Below, piece by piece: positions 2,768-8,073 of a DNA stretch of 8,529 nt (its first letter is position 1; every line of letters starts with the position of its first letter). The position numbers and the translations under genes were made by a program. The DNA is from Syntrophaceae bacterium (lineage in GTDB: Bacteria > Desulfobacterota > SM23-61): positions 1-8,529 of the forward strand of contig PMCE01000108.1 of the NCBI GenBank assembly GCA_003154025.1, written 5' to 3'. Under the pieces are notes generated by a model. That model was not told where the DNA came from. It saw only the letters and a list, made by a program, of their open reading frames with translations, and did no database searches.

Positions 2768-4186
2768 CTATTCGATCGGCGGTTTCTTATCCTTCCAACC
2801 CGTTAGGGTTTCATAAGCGGCGGCGGCTTTCAGGACCGTCGTCTCGGCCAGCCTGCGGCCCACGATCTGCAGCCCCACGGGCAGGCCTTCGGAAGTGAAC
2901 CCGCAAGGGATGGAGATCGCGGGAAGCCCGGTCATGGTGATGGCGTAGGTCAGGTACAGCCACTCCTGATAGTTCTTCATGGGTTGTCCATTGATCTCTT
3001 TCGGGTAAATCCATTCCTGGGGGAAGGGGGGAACCGCCACCGTAGGGGTCAGGAGAAGGTCGACCTTCTCGAAGAACTTCCGGACGGTGTGGTATAGAGC
3101 CGTCCTTGCTCTCTCGGCTTCTCCAATCTGCTTGGGCGTCAGCGGAAACCCCTGTTCGATGTTCCAGACCAGGTTGGGATTCATCTGGCCGCGCCACTTC
3201 TCCAGCTTCTCCCCGTGCAGAGCCACCATCCGAAGCGCGCGGGTCACGTGGATGATCTGCTGGACACCGCTAAAATCCGGTTCCGCCTGCTCTACCCGGC
3301 ACCCCAGTTCGGCGAATCGGCGGGCCGCAGCGCTAAAAATTCTTTCCACTTCATGGTCCACGGCGGAAATCTTCAGGTCCGGGCTCCAGGCCACTCGGAG
3401 TCCTCGGGTTTCCGGATTTTCCACCGCCGCCAGAAATTCTCCGGGTTTCACCGGAAAAGAGATGGGGGAGCGGTCGTCTTGTCCCGCCATCACCTCAAGC
3501 ATGAGCGCCGTGTCCTTAACCGTCCGGGCCATGGGGCCTTCCACGGCCAAGGCATCCCAACCCAGTTGGCTCGGATACATGGGCACCAGCCCGGCTGAGG
3601 TGCGGAACCCGACGACTCCGCAGAAGGATGCGGGGATCCGGAGGGACCCCCCCAGATCGCTCCCCGTGGCCAGGGGGCCGAGCCCGCAAGCCAAGGCCAC
3701 GGCAGATCCTCCGCTGGATCCGCCGCAGGTGTGGCTCAGTCTCCAGGGATTGCGGGTGGCCCCGAAGACCTGGTTATAGGTATTGGCTCCCGCGCCGAAT
3801 TCGGGGGTGTTCGTCTTTCCCATGACGATCGCCCCCGCAGCCTTCAGCCGCTCCACGCTCAAGGCGTCCTCTTCGGGGACGAAATGCTCGTAAATTTTGG
3901 ATCCCCAGGTGGTTCGGATCCCGGCCGTGAGGGTCAAATCCTTGATGGAGACGGGAATCCCATGCACGAGTCCGAGTTTTTCCCCGCGCATGACCGCGGC
4001 CTCGGCCTTCTTCGCCGCTTCCCGGGCCATCTCCGGCACAACGGTGCAATAGGCGTTGACCTGGGGGTTGACCTTCTCGATTCGCGCCAGGACCGCATCG
4101 ACGATCTCCACCGGAGATATTTTTTTGTTCTTTACCGCCGAGGCCATCTCTGCGGCCGGCATGAAGCATAGATCTTTCGCGTTCAA
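2768..4186 (-). CDS. Amidase-signature family hydrolase (GatA-like amidase)
   Basis: This 472-aa protein belongs to the amidase signature family, which hydrolyses or transfers amide bonds using a Ser-cisSer-Lys triad. The triad is visible: K82 in VSIKDL, S157 in GGSSGGS (155-161), and the nucleophile S181 in GSDLGGS (175-181), followed by the conserved FCGVVGFR stretch (188-195). The C-terminal TGLPAISIPCG is also typical. The length fits the family. No gatC or gatB lies nearby, so a stand-alone amidase (aliphatic or aryl amide, nitrile-pathway or catabolic) is more likely than the tRNA amidotransferase subunit; the substrate cannot be read from sequence. The start chosen is TTG at 4184-4186, because a strong AAAGGAG (4193-4199) lies 6 bases upstream. 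The next ATG (codon 9) has no such site. The stop is TAG, and the gene converges on the thioredoxin reductase gene. Confidence 0.9.
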   Translation of the reverse strand: MNAKDLCFMPAAEMASAVKNKKISPVEIVDAVLARIEKVNPQVNAYCTVVPEMAREAAKKAEAAVMRGEKLGLVHGIPVSIKDLTLTAGIRTTWGSKIYEHFVPEEDALSVERLKAAGAIVMGKTNTPEFGAGANTYNQVFGATRNPWRLSHTCGGSSGGSAVALACGLGPLATGSDLGGSLRIPASFCGVVGFRTSAGLVPMYPSQLGWDALAVEGPMARTVKDTALMLEVMAGQDDRSPISFPVKPGEFLAAVENPETRGLRVAWSPDLKISAVDHEVERIFSAAARRFAELGCRVEQAEPDFSGVQQIIHVTRALRMVALHGEKLEKWRGQMNPNLVWNIEQGFPLTPKQIGEAERARTALYHTVRKFFEKVDLLLTPTVAVPPFPQEWIYPKEINGQPMKNYQEWLYLTYAITMTGLPAISIPCGFTSEGLPVGLQIVGRRLAETTVLKAAAAYETLTGWKDKKPPIE

Positions 4187-4199: not shown

Positions 4200-4244
4200 C
4201 AGGAATAAAAGATGAGGGCGGGACGGAAAAGACTCTGAGGATCG

Positions 4245-4284
4245 AAAAAAGAGGGACTCCCCGCCTTTCGAGAGACGCGGGGAG
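4245..4284 (-). terminator. Rho-independent-like terminator after the selenocysteine rhodanese gene
   Basis: On the minus strand, CTCCCCGC (4277-4284) pairs perfectly with GCGGGGAG (4257-4264) around a 12-base loop whose ends can pair weakly too. After six bases comes a run of six U (4245-4250). It begins about a dozen bases after the rhodanese stop. The gap between stem and U-tract makes it less than ideal, but its position after the true stop fits a rhodanese gene ending at 4296. Confidence 0.55.
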
Positions 4285-4295
4285 CATCTAAAAGA

Positions 4296-4712
4296 CTACT
4301 TGGCTTCCACGGGGAAGTTGGCCTGAGACCATTCTTTCCATCCGCCCTTGAGGGCGTAGACTTTGGTGAATCCCATGCTCATCAGATCCTGTGCCACCCG
4401 GGCACTGGTCCCCTCGCTGGGTCAGGCGCAGTAGAGGATGATGGTCTTGTCCTTCCCGTATTTCTGGGCCCACGTCTTGGTTGCTTTGCTGGGATCTTCC
4501 CGGACCGCCCCCAGGATCTTCATCTGGGCCTTGTCCCAGTCTCCGGTAGCCCGGACATCCAGGACGGCCACATCCGGCTTGCCCAACATCTCCTTGAGCT
4601 GTTCCTTGGTCATGCGGGGAATTTTTTCCGCCCCCCCAACCGAACCGACCCCCATGGCCAGGACGGCGAGAATGGCGGTTATCCCGCAAATCATCGGCAT
4701 TCTTTTCCGCAT
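4296..4712 (-). CDS. Exported rhodanese-like sulfurtransferase with a probable selenocysteine (UGA) at the catalytic position
   Basis: Reading through one in-frame UGA (4422-4424) gives a 138-aa single-domain rhodanese. Residues 1-28 look like a Sec signal peptide (MRKRMPMICG, hydrophobic core, cleavage near GGA-EK), so it should act in the periplasm. Rhodanese features are DVAVLDVR (47-54), LGAV (67-70), the strand IILYCA (91-96), U97, the active-site loop PSEGTS (98-103) with A-R following, and ALKGGWKEW near the C-terminus. The loop and the distance to KGG match ordinary rhodaneses when U97 is aligned to the catalytic Cys; C95 is an extra thiol two residues before. Only 96 aa would remain if UGA stopped, cutting the domain at its active site, while the frame continues with rhodanese-like sequence to TAG. 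AGGAGG (4721-4726) lies 8 bases before the ATG. Rhodaneses move sulfane sulfur; the partner here is unknown. A sequencing error or a one-codon pseudogene is the alternative. Confidence 0.8.
4385..4410 (-). promoter_or_regulatory. Candidate bacterial SECIS element (bSECIS)
   Basis: In the mRNA just after the UGA, GUGCC (4405-4401) pairs perfectly with GGCAC (4395-4391) around the 5-base loop CGGGU. The stem continues below an A-A mismatch with CC/GG and then, past one bulged A, with GA/UC. The apical loop starts 21 nucleotides after the UGA and has a G as its second base. Both agree with the known bacterial SECIS consensus (loop about 16-37 nt downstream, G among the first two loop bases). The element would recruit SelB with Sec-tRNA to recode the UGA at 4422-4424. 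Confidence 0.65.
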
Positions 4713-4789: not shown

Positions 4790-5227
4790 TTACAGATAGC
4801 GGACCAGGCGAACAGCCTTGGAGAGGACAAACACCCGGGCGTTGTTGCTCTTCGGATCGGCCGGGAAGACGAAGAACCCCGGCCGTTTGGGGTCATAGCC
4901 CAGCGTCGAGCCGACCATGACCTCTCCATCGATGAAGGTCACTTCCACGATCCGCCCGGAGGGGCGTTCCCCCGGAGTATATTCCCTTCGGTCGGCATAG
5001 TCAGGCTTTCCGGAAAAATCCCGCACGAAGAAGACGGCCTTCAAATCCCGGAGAAGAATCTCCGTTCCCTCCTTGAGGTCGGCGGCTTCCGTCGGAAAAA
5101 TATGGAAGCTGGGTTTGTTGGGGGCAAAATCCTGGGTAAAGCCTTTGATCATTTGGCCATCCAGATACCGGGCAACAATCTTTACCTTTTCCACGGCGCG
5201 AACCCGACCTTTTCCGTTTCCCCGCAT
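4790..5227 (-). CDS. Small protein of unknown function with two internal repeats
   Basis: I do not assign a function. The 145-aa protein has no signal peptide or membrane segment and looks cytoplasmic. It contains two similar beta-rich units: residues about 16-70 (IVARYLDGQMIKGF, then PNKPSFHIFP) and about 93-145 (IVEVTFIDGEVMVGS, then PKRPGFFVFP). Each has the pattern I-V-x4-DG-x3-x-G, an aromatic/Asp-Pro turn, P-x-F-x-(I/V)-FP, and a closing AV-(F/R)-(F/L)-VR strand. This points to duplication of one domain. I vaguely recall similar DG...KG...P..F domains of unknown function in deltaproteobacterial proteins. The ATG at 5225-5227 has no strong ribosome site, and the GTG at codon 12 (just before EKVKIVARY) is another candidate. 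It precedes the rhodanese gene on the same strand with a 77-base gap, so co-transcription is possible. Confidence 0.75.
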   Translation of the reverse strand: MRGNGKGRVRAVEKVKIVARYLDGQMIKGFTQDFAPNKPSFHIFPTEAADLKEGTEILLRDLKAVFFVRDFSGKPDYADRREYTPGERPSGRIVEVTFIDGEVMVGSTLGYDPKRPGFFVFPADPKSNNARVFVLSKAVRLVRYL

Positions 5228-6731: not shown

Positions 6732-6746
6732 AGTTCTCAGCTATCG

Positions 6747-6818
6747 GGCTCCAGCCTCACTCCTTGAGCCTTGAACCTTGCTTACTCTTCGCTCCTCGAA
6801 CCTCGCGCTTCTAACCTT
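6747..6818. repeat. Heptad-periodic spacer between two minus-strand genes
   Basis: The spacer reads in steps of seven. On the plus strand AGCCTTG and AACCTTG are adjacent heptads near 6767-6780, and CTCGAAC and CTCGCGC are adjacent near 6795-6808. On the minus strand these become GGTTCGA and AAGGTTC-type units, the same family as at 2677-2767. The phase shifts once in the middle. Unlike the other two loci, there is no clear inverted second arm. The repeat runs into the stop codon of the upstream gene (TAG at 6811-6813) and slightly past it. Confidence 0.45.
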
Positions 6819-8064
6819 TCTTTTGCAGGTGCCATTTCGGCCCTTGCGAAGTATCCTCTACCACGATCCCCAACTGGGTGATTTTATCCCGGATGAAGTC
6901 GGCCAGTTCCCACTGTTTGGCGGAGCGGAGTCTCCCCCGGATCTCCAGGAGAATGTCCATCAGCGGCGCCATGGTGGAAGGGATATCTTTGGGCAGTTCG
7001 TCAAGCCGCAGCCCCAGTTGGACGATCATCCCCCTGAAGATCTCCCGGGCATCGGAGATTCTTTCTTCGTCTTCGAATTCCCGGCAGGACTTCCAGAGTA
7101 GTTTATCCAGGGCCACCAGGGCGTGAATCAAGGACTCGGGTCTATGCTCCTGAAGATAGCGCCCGAAGGCCTCCTGGAGAGATCTCACCTGAACCATGAA
7201 GGGTTCGGCCCCCGGCTCGGTCGTCTGGATCTTCGCAGAAACGGGAGGGTTCTCCGGAAGGGAAGAAAGGGCCATCTTCCGGAATTCTTCGAGGGAGAGA
7301 GCCTCTCCATCCCGGAAAACCTTCTGATCTCCGCCATGGCGCAAAGTCACCCCTCCCACTCCCCGGATCAGAACCTGGCCCGACGAAAAGTCCAGAATGC
7401 AGGCCGTATGCTCATCGACCCCCAGGATCGGCGTCCCCGGGGGAAGCATGGTTTCGAGGCGAATCAGGCGGGGCTCCCCCATATAGCAGAAGCGGGTGTC
7501 GTGGGTTCCCCCTTCGGCGTTGTTCCAGTGGGGTATCACCACGACGGGAAGCCCAAATTGCCCCAGCAGGTTCAACCCCTCCACCCAGTGAACCTCTTCT
7601 CCCACTTTGTAGACCTCATACACGGGGAGGGTGAACCGGCCGAGCGTCAGGGCCGCGGCGCTGGCGGCCACAAAGCATGCCCCCAACCGGATCCTTTCCA
7701 CCAGGATCTGGGGGATGGGAGTGCCCATCCAATTTCTCAGGGCATAGGTGGGGCTGCCGGGTCCGACGAAAATATAATCAGCCTCTCGAAGGGCATGGAA
7801 GGCCTTTTCCGCCTCGTAGGCTGATATATTCTTCGCCGATTTGAAAGAGGCTTGCTCCAGGGGCTGGTTCAGACGCTTGAGGAAATATTCCCGGGACTTC
7901 TCGAAGAGGTCATCGGCGTTCATCTGAAAGCCGGCGGGAGTATCTATGAAAACAGCTCTCGCGGGACGGTTCAGCTTTTCTAGAAGAAACCGGTGCACCC
8001 GGACCATTGAATCCGTGGTTTCCCCGGAACCCATGATGGCGATGCTGCCACGAGGAGTGGACAC
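6811..8064 (-). CDS. Peptidase S51/cyanophycinase-like protein fused to a CysRS C-terminal-like domain
   Basis: Numbering here is from the upstream TTG (8071-8073). Residues about 10-230 resemble the S51/class I amidotransferase-like fold of peptidase E and cyanophycinase: IAIMGSGET (11-19), VFIDTPAGF (41-49), IFVGPGSPTYALRN (101-114), the nucleophile region VAASAAALT (135-143, S138), IPHWNN (180-185, H182) and GVDEHTACIL (218-227). The usual GxSAG is relaxed to AASAA. Residues about 295-420 resemble the C-terminal helical/anticodon region of cysteinyl-tRNA synthetase: an ALxALDKLL-type helix (317-326), LEIRGRLRSAKQWELADFIRD (376-396; key R379, W388, AD 391-392, IRD) and LGIVVEDTSQGPKW (401-414). 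No synthetase catalytic core (HIGH, KMSKS) is present, so it is not a CysRS. The GTG at 8062-8064 (codon 4, 417 aa) is preferred: AGGAGG (8074-8079) lies 9 bases before it but directly abuts the TTG. The role is unknown; peptide, amide or tRNA-related substrates are all possible. Confidence 0.82.
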   Translation of the reverse strand: MSTPRGSIAIMGSGETTDSMVRVHRFLLEKLNRPARAVFIDTPAGFQMNADDLFEKSREYFLKRLNQPLEQASFKSAKNISAYEAEKAFHALREADYIFVGPGSPTYALRNWMGTPIPQILVERIRLGACFVAASAAALTLGRFTLPVYEVYKVGEEVHWVEGLNLLGQFGLPVVVIPHWNNAEGGTHDTRFCYMGEPRLIRLETMLPPGTPILGVDEHTACILDFSSGQVLIRGVGGVTLRHGGDQKVFRDGEALSLEEFRKMALSSLPENPPVSAKIQTTEPGAEPFMVQVRSLQEAFGRYLQEHRPESLIHALVALDKLLWKSCREFEDEERISDAREIFRGMIVQLGLRLDELPKDIPSTMAPLMDILLEIRGRLRSAKQWELADFIRDKITQLGIVVEDTSQGPKWHLQKKG

Positions 8065-8073
8065 ACCCGTCAA

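Follow-up and report, generated by a model that had tools for sequence, protein, structure and literature searches.

A rhodanese gene with an in-frame UGA codon and its surroundings

The window, by which we mean the whole 8,529-nucleotide stretch of the Syntrophaceae contig PMCE01000108.1 that was analyzed, carries a gene for a rhodanese-domain protein whose reading frame is crossed by a TGA triplet (Table 1). Under translation table 11, this triplet terminates an open reading frame of 96 amino acids (4422..4712, minus strand), and reading it as selenocysteine (Sec) extends the frame to 138 residues, closing at a TAG codon. The residue concerned, U97, falls within the active-site loop, YCAUPSEGTSAR; the TGC codon of Cys95 lies two codons 5' of the TGA, and the readthrough protein ends with KGGWKEWSQANFPVEAK. 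The original prediction of an in-frame UGA at codon 97 of an otherwise intact rhodanese gave the right coordinates for this gene, the strand being minus. The N-terminus reads as an export signal, a segment of low model confidence in the predicted structure (residues 1-30), and we infer from its sequence that the product is exported to the periplasm.

Table 1. Features of the rhodanese locus, with the evidence for each
Feature	Positions	Strand	Evidence and remarks
Sec-containing rhodanese gene with export signal	4296..4712	-	138 codons and TAG (4298-4296); PF00581 and NF041203 matches
In-frame TGA, codon 97, read as Sec	4422..4424	-	ORF list and translation; UGA there in 72 of 83 over-cut-off relatives
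N-terminal export signal, approximately residues 1-30	4623..4712	-	Basic start and hydrophobic core, read by eye; cleavage site inferred
SECIS-type hairpin, GUGCC-CGGGU-GGCAC	4391..4405	-	Comparative: conservation and covariation
Terminator-like hairpin and T run after TAG	4245..4285	-	Folding; weak on its own
DUF6982 (PF22478) gene, directly upstream	4790..5227	-	Pfam; same neighbor in L001 and L022
Promoter-like site	5303-5275		Upstream of the DUF6982 gene
Amidase gene, downstream	2768..4186	-	Domain matches; same neighbor in L001 and L022

The gene order DUF6982-rhodanese-amidase is common to the window and to two relatives, L001 and L022 (the latter from genome G008). A terminator-like hairpin does follow the TAG, as had been proposed: the stretch 4240-4300 folds at -19.8 kcal/mol (z -1.5 against shuffles), with a shorter version of the hairpin at 4274-4257, but terminator-like sites are no commoner in that region than in shuffled sequence (3 against a shuffle mean of 2.2).

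Elsewhere in the window, the plus-strand gene at 1048-2676 combines a protein disulfide oxidoreductase-like part (CPYC) with a thioredoxin-reductase-like part (CSTC), the NCBIfam matches of both lying under their cut-offs. The minus-strand gene at 6811-8073 encodes a Peptidase S51-like protein (24.2 bits against a cut-off of 23.9), whose C-terminus has a weak, below-cut-off likeness to the C-terminal domain of cysteinyl-tRNA synthetase. Two intergenic tracts (2668-2768 and approximately 6740-6815) appear by eye to be imperfectly purine/pyrimidine-biased, and the first of these draws weak miRNA matches on both strands that are surely spurious.

Conservation of the UGA codon and of the frame beyond it

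Among the 56 relatives listed from a first protein search, 30 end at Tyr-Cys followed by Ala or Asn, that is, directly before codon 97, and a further 13 end at the Tyr that precedes codon 95. One database protein, P0002, from a contig of 1468 bases, is 98% identical to the window protein over its 96 residues and terminates at the same codon. Since P0002 and those 30 relatives stop at the same place, a sequencing error at codon 97 is very unlikely, and we rejected it. Gene calls in the databases thus often cut members of this family short.

The family profile was then used to search 395 genomes of a related phylum, 60 of which hold over-cut-off matches, and all 83 such matches were read and aligned. 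Codon 97 is UGA in 72 of them, Ser in nine, and Cys in two; taken together, positions 95 and 97 read CxU in 61, UxU in 11, CxS in eight, CxC in two, and SxS in one. Every one of the 72 sequences with Sec97 has either Cys (61) or Sec (11) at position 95. As controls from below the cut-off, we chose 15 of the 61 matches listed, seven of these 15 being picked for the absence of an inner stop; they comprise seven CxU, one UxU, three CxC, two CxA, and two CxS forms. In one CxS sequence, L113, the TGA is displaced one codon further on.

A single relative, L001, from a deltaproteobacterial metagenome-assembled genome of Lake Pavin, emerged from a scan of contigs. It is 70% identical to the window protein in the best segment, covers residues 4-138, and has its TGA at the same codon. 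Across eight genomes of its class, all seven over-cut-off matches contain one TGA. Beyond the UGA, the rate of nonsynonymous change was lower than that of synonymous change in all six pairwise comparisons tried (dN and dS are 0.14 and 0.30 for the window against L002, and 0.20 and 0.46 against L022). The same class also holds further weak rhodanese matches with an in-frame TGA (L005, L006, L025, L032, and L037). Two other sequences, L004 (1501-1830, plus strand) and L033 (1498-1818, minus strand), are CTU/CNU rhodaneses with a hydrophobic N-terminal stretch and longer open frames; they have a 7-bp version of the hairpin described below and score under the NF041203 cut-off.

The wider kin of the protein are more varied. 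Among the 120 of 3164 relatives listed from a profile search, positions 95 and 97 read CxC in 31, CxW in 29, and CxS in 23, with a gap at 97 in 17; the rest are CxD (four), CxE (four), CxQ, CxL, and WxW (three each), and CxF, FxL, and -xR (one each). The predicted Cys homologs at position 97 are present in every set, in the CxC forms given above and in the alignment of P0056. The broader expectation that homologs should have Cys or Sec there holds for most of the over-cut-off family, but position 97 is not strictly Cys/Sec, because Ser (in nine of the 83) and, in the wider kin, a gap, Asp, Glu, Gln, Leu, and others occur.

The Trp readings in these database sequences raise the question of whether UGA is read as tryptophan (or glycine) throughout the organism, so that residue 97 would not be Sec at all. 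The 29 relatives with Trp at 97 and the three with Trp at both 95 and 97 are what such a code would produce, but they are most simply, and probably, explained by the use of code 4 in gene calling. Moreover, the open reading frame 1048-2676 of the window itself ends at TGA, which makes a genome-wide tryptophan code unlikely, and such a code would account neither for the hairpin after the UGA nor for the Sec machinery found in a related genome (G001, below). We accordingly rejected this explanation as highly improbable.

A covarying SECIS-type hairpin downstream of the UGA

The putative SECIS-type hairpin occupies the 17th to 31st nucleotides after the UGA and comprises a stem of five base pairs and a loop of five nucleotides with G at its second position, the distance from the UGA to the apical loop being 21 nucleotides. 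According to PMC1088965, bacterial SECIS elements commonly share a small apical loop that contains a guanosine. When the hairpin is scored as present if at least four pairs form at the fixed place downstream of the UGA, it is found in 79 of the 81 rows, counting the window, in which codon 97 is UGA (the exceptions are L078 and L137), against three of the 18 rows in which it is not (L104, L111, and L113, of which L111 is a Ser form with four pairs). In each of 81 rows, the second base of the loop is G.

Folding of the alignment with RNAalifold over 48 columns yields this hairpin as the sole predicted structure, with changes on both sides in four of its five pairs. The proportion of paired cells (99.3%), the number of cells with changes on both sides (38), and the covariation score (0.285) were each reached by none of 500 shuffles, and the number of pairs with changes on both sides by one of 500; as the rows are related, these figures, like the Fisher value below, overstate independence. 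Slid versions of the structure attain a pairing of at most 63%. The principal covarying pair is formed by the third codon positions of Ser103 and Ala107, which in 75 rows read T-A in 45, C-G in 28, T-G in one, and C-A in one (Fisher 2.6e-18, uncorrected for kinship). Its mutual information exceeds that of every other pair among the 6216 third-position pairs in these genes; when pairs are ranked by how far pairing exceeds expectation, only 102-108 stands above it, at the place into which a longer stem would extend. Ser103 is encoded by AGY in 78 of 79 rows, as against 42% of the other Ser codons. Because the main pair joins two synonymous positions, selection at the level of the protein cannot explain the covariation. 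For a recoding signal, this is unusually clear evidence.

A SECIS signal had been anticipated in the stretch 4380-4430, and a hairpin does lie there, but it is apparent from comparison and not from the fold of the single sequence: that stretch folds no better than its shuffles (z 0.24), 4370-4424 slightly better (z -2.04), and 4365-4440 again no better (z 0.90). An Rfam scan of the window returned four weak matches, all far under their gathering scores and none at the hairpin.

These observations also bear on the simplest reading of the locus, namely that the UGA is a genuine stop and that the gene is a pseudogene or encodes a truncated protein of 96 residues, the frame downstream being a remnant. 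The table-11 frame and the endpoint shared by the truncated database relatives are what a true stop would give; against this stand the retention of the UGA across the phylum, a dN lower than dS beyond it, and a hairpin that covaries at synonymous sites. On the conservation of the UGA, the downstream frame, and the hairpin, we rejected a true stop as having only the slightest probability.

The Ser97 forms above the cut-off include eight sequences (L104, L111, L114, L119, L121, L122, L126, and L127) from five genomes, four of which also hold a Sec copy (the exception is G374). The hairpin is absent from six of the eight, L104 and L111 having it by the four-pair rule; L104 may represent a loss of Sec to Ser with a remnant of the hairpin.

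Selenocysteine machinery in related genomes

The Sec machinery was examined in the genomes of relatives, the nearest being G001, the genome of L001. G001 encodes SelB (366.8 bits) and SelA (633.8 bits), along with a tRNA-Sec (72.6 bits; called by ARAGORN as tRNA-SeC with anticodon tca) and a partial, over-cut-off SelD match located at a contig end, in agreement with the expectation that the machinery would be present. Each of the eight genomes searched from its class encodes SelA and yields a SelD match above the cut-off, and seven have SelB, G005 lacking a match at E 1e-60. In each of these eight genomes, the best over-cut-off selD match (L047-L054) itself holds one inner TGA. Across the phylum, SelB is found in 353 of the 395 genomes; of the 60 that have a rhodanese match over the cut-off, 59 also have SelB, G176 being the one with no SelB match at E 1e-60; given the base rate of 353 in 395, this co-occurrence is consistent with Sec insertion but hardly informative.

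Insertion of Sec at codon 97, as originally predicted, is almost certain on comparative sequence grounds, namely the conserved UGA, the covarying hairpin, and the family match detailed next.

Family affinities, fold, and the register of the nucleophile

The window protein matches NF041203, 'rhodanese-related (seleno)protein', at 174.9 bits against a curated cut-off of 115, its residues 16-138 aligning to positions 5-126 of the 126-position profile. The L-Y-C-A-U motif that we read from the name of that model, rhodanese_LYCAU, is matched by ILYCAU, with the UGA as codon 97. A single PF00581 rhodanese domain is also recognized (60.3 bits against a cut-off of 22.2). Its fold and Pfam family are held in common with the single-domain rhodaneses GlpE and PspE. 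Rhodaneses of the GlpE/PspE type have one active-site Cys, and their loop is shorter and usually contains an Arg, as is also visible in 6mxv. In contrast, the loop of the window protein has CxU and no Arg before Ser103.

The window protein shares the YCAU motif, small size of the rhodanese, and export signal with rhodanese_LYCAU, and we found no substantive difference from that family; it is a new member, from a lineage in which DUF6982 and amidase genes flank it (window, L001, and L022). TsoB, a rhodanese/DsbD fusion-like protein (NF045694), is likewise a rhodanese-domain selenoprotein, but the match of the window protein to that model is weak, 27.6 bits against a cut-off of 805 that it does not reach. 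TsoB is a fusion with a model of 572 positions and two Sec residues in a UxxxxU arrangement, according to the part of PMC13188914 that covers it, unlike the single-domain CxU protein of the window. The NF041203 kind is itself tabulated in two reviews, PMC13188914 (rhodanese form 3, CxU, TKB26178.1) and PMC9312934 (COG0607 form 2, CxU, TKB26178.1), in line with the statement in the original prediction that Sec-containing rhodanese-like proteins had appeared in selenoproteome surveys. As the model and these tables already hold the CxU form, that form is not new, and the present finding is a correct independent rediscovery of it.

The predicted structure has a rhodanese fold (mean pLDDT 90.3), with rhodanese-like proteins as the top Foldseek hits (best E 2.4e-8). 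In it, a strand spanning residues 90-94 ends at Tyr94; Cys95, Ala96, and Sec97 open the loop, and a helix follows at 101-112. The claim that U97 sits exactly in the place of the nucleophilic Cys stands in one register: in the alignment by family profile, U97 corresponds to the canonical Cys of both 6mxv domains, and the single window sequence gives the same for domain 1. In other alignments the place falls to C95, namely across a gap in domain 2 of 6mxv with the single sequence, in one 1yt8 domain with the profile, and in the single-Cys relatives P0035 and P0038, which keep the Tyr-Cys and have a loop two residues shorter. Sequence alignment thus gives two registers for the canonical nucleophile, U97 and C95.

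The fold, and the match of U97 to the canonical Cys in most 6mxv domain alignments, would suit an ordinary sulfurtransferase, in which Sec is inserted and either U97 or C95 is the sole nucleophile carrying sulfane sulfur, the other residue being structural. We consider this unlikely, though deserving of more weight than the other alternatives: each of the 72 over-cut-off Sec97 rows has Cys or Sec at position 95, and the two replace each other there (parsimony counts seven changes, though the tree is poorly resolved), a pattern that a paired redox residue would be expected to show. Our preferred reading, to which we assign a probability of about 0.85, is that the product of the window gene is a single-domain, exported selenoprotein with a rhodanese fold, that it belongs to the rhodanese_LYCAU family, and that its CxU motif forms a redox dyad, broadly understood.

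A possible double-selenocysteine variant

In the UxU forms (11 of the 83 over-cut-off relatives and one of the 15 chosen from below the cut-off: L063, L069, L073, L082, L091, L098, L099, L101, L103, L108, L128, and L138), codons 95 and 97 are both TGA, and a single copy of the hairpin follows them. Parsimony places the seven changes at position 95 on a tree in which 42 of 81 inner branches are unresolved, and a single origin of UxU is compatible with the strongly supported branches alone. We lean slightly toward a recurrent Sec-x-Sec form in the family, with repeated exchange of Cys and Sec at 95 and with both UGAs, six nucleotides apart, served by one hairpin. Four database proteins (P0011, P0012, P0014, and P0015), 78-79% identical to the window protein, terminate in their protein records at Tyr94, which is where a UxU form would stop. 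A literature search, resting on partial texts, returned no description of a UxU form for this rhodanese family, which is not proof of its being unpublished. The variant is the most novel by-product of the analysis. If it is real, the family would represent a natural series of forms (CxS, CxC, CxU, and UxU) of a chalcogen redox dyad in the periplasm, and its UxU members would contain a diselenide.

Predicted mechanism and significance

The comparative evidence for the frame and hairpin suggests that SelB with Sec-tRNA(Sec) would bind the hairpin during translation, that codon 97 would then be read as Sec, and that translation would continue to the TAG. The protein would be exported, and both sequence and predicted fold place the Cys95-Ala-Sec97 dyad where the active-site loop begins. 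There, one member of the dyad may attack a sulfane sulfur or a disulfide, the other may resolve the intermediate via an internal selenylsulfide, and a periplasmic thiol partner may then reduce the selenylsulfide. We favor a redox role for the dyad because, in the over-cut-off set, position 95 is invariably Cys or Sec where 97 is Sec; tentatively, at somewhat less than even odds, the protein could be a periplasmic persulfide/polysulfide or disulfide reductase and not a classical thiosulfate:cyanide sulfurtransferase. A periplasmic role for the Cys/Sec pair in the binding or transfer of selenium, mercury, or arsenic compounds is improbable: what speaks for it is the general chemistry of CxU pairs, and the neighbors in the window, L001, and L022 are the DUF6982 and amidase genes, between which no gene related to metals or selenium lies.

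With this locus, a predicted selenoprotein family that is often truncated in database gene calls gains a well-supported member. It also gains a covarying SECIS-type hairpin that is usable for re-annotation, and the CxS, CxC, CxU, and UxU forms offer a way to test what the dyad does.
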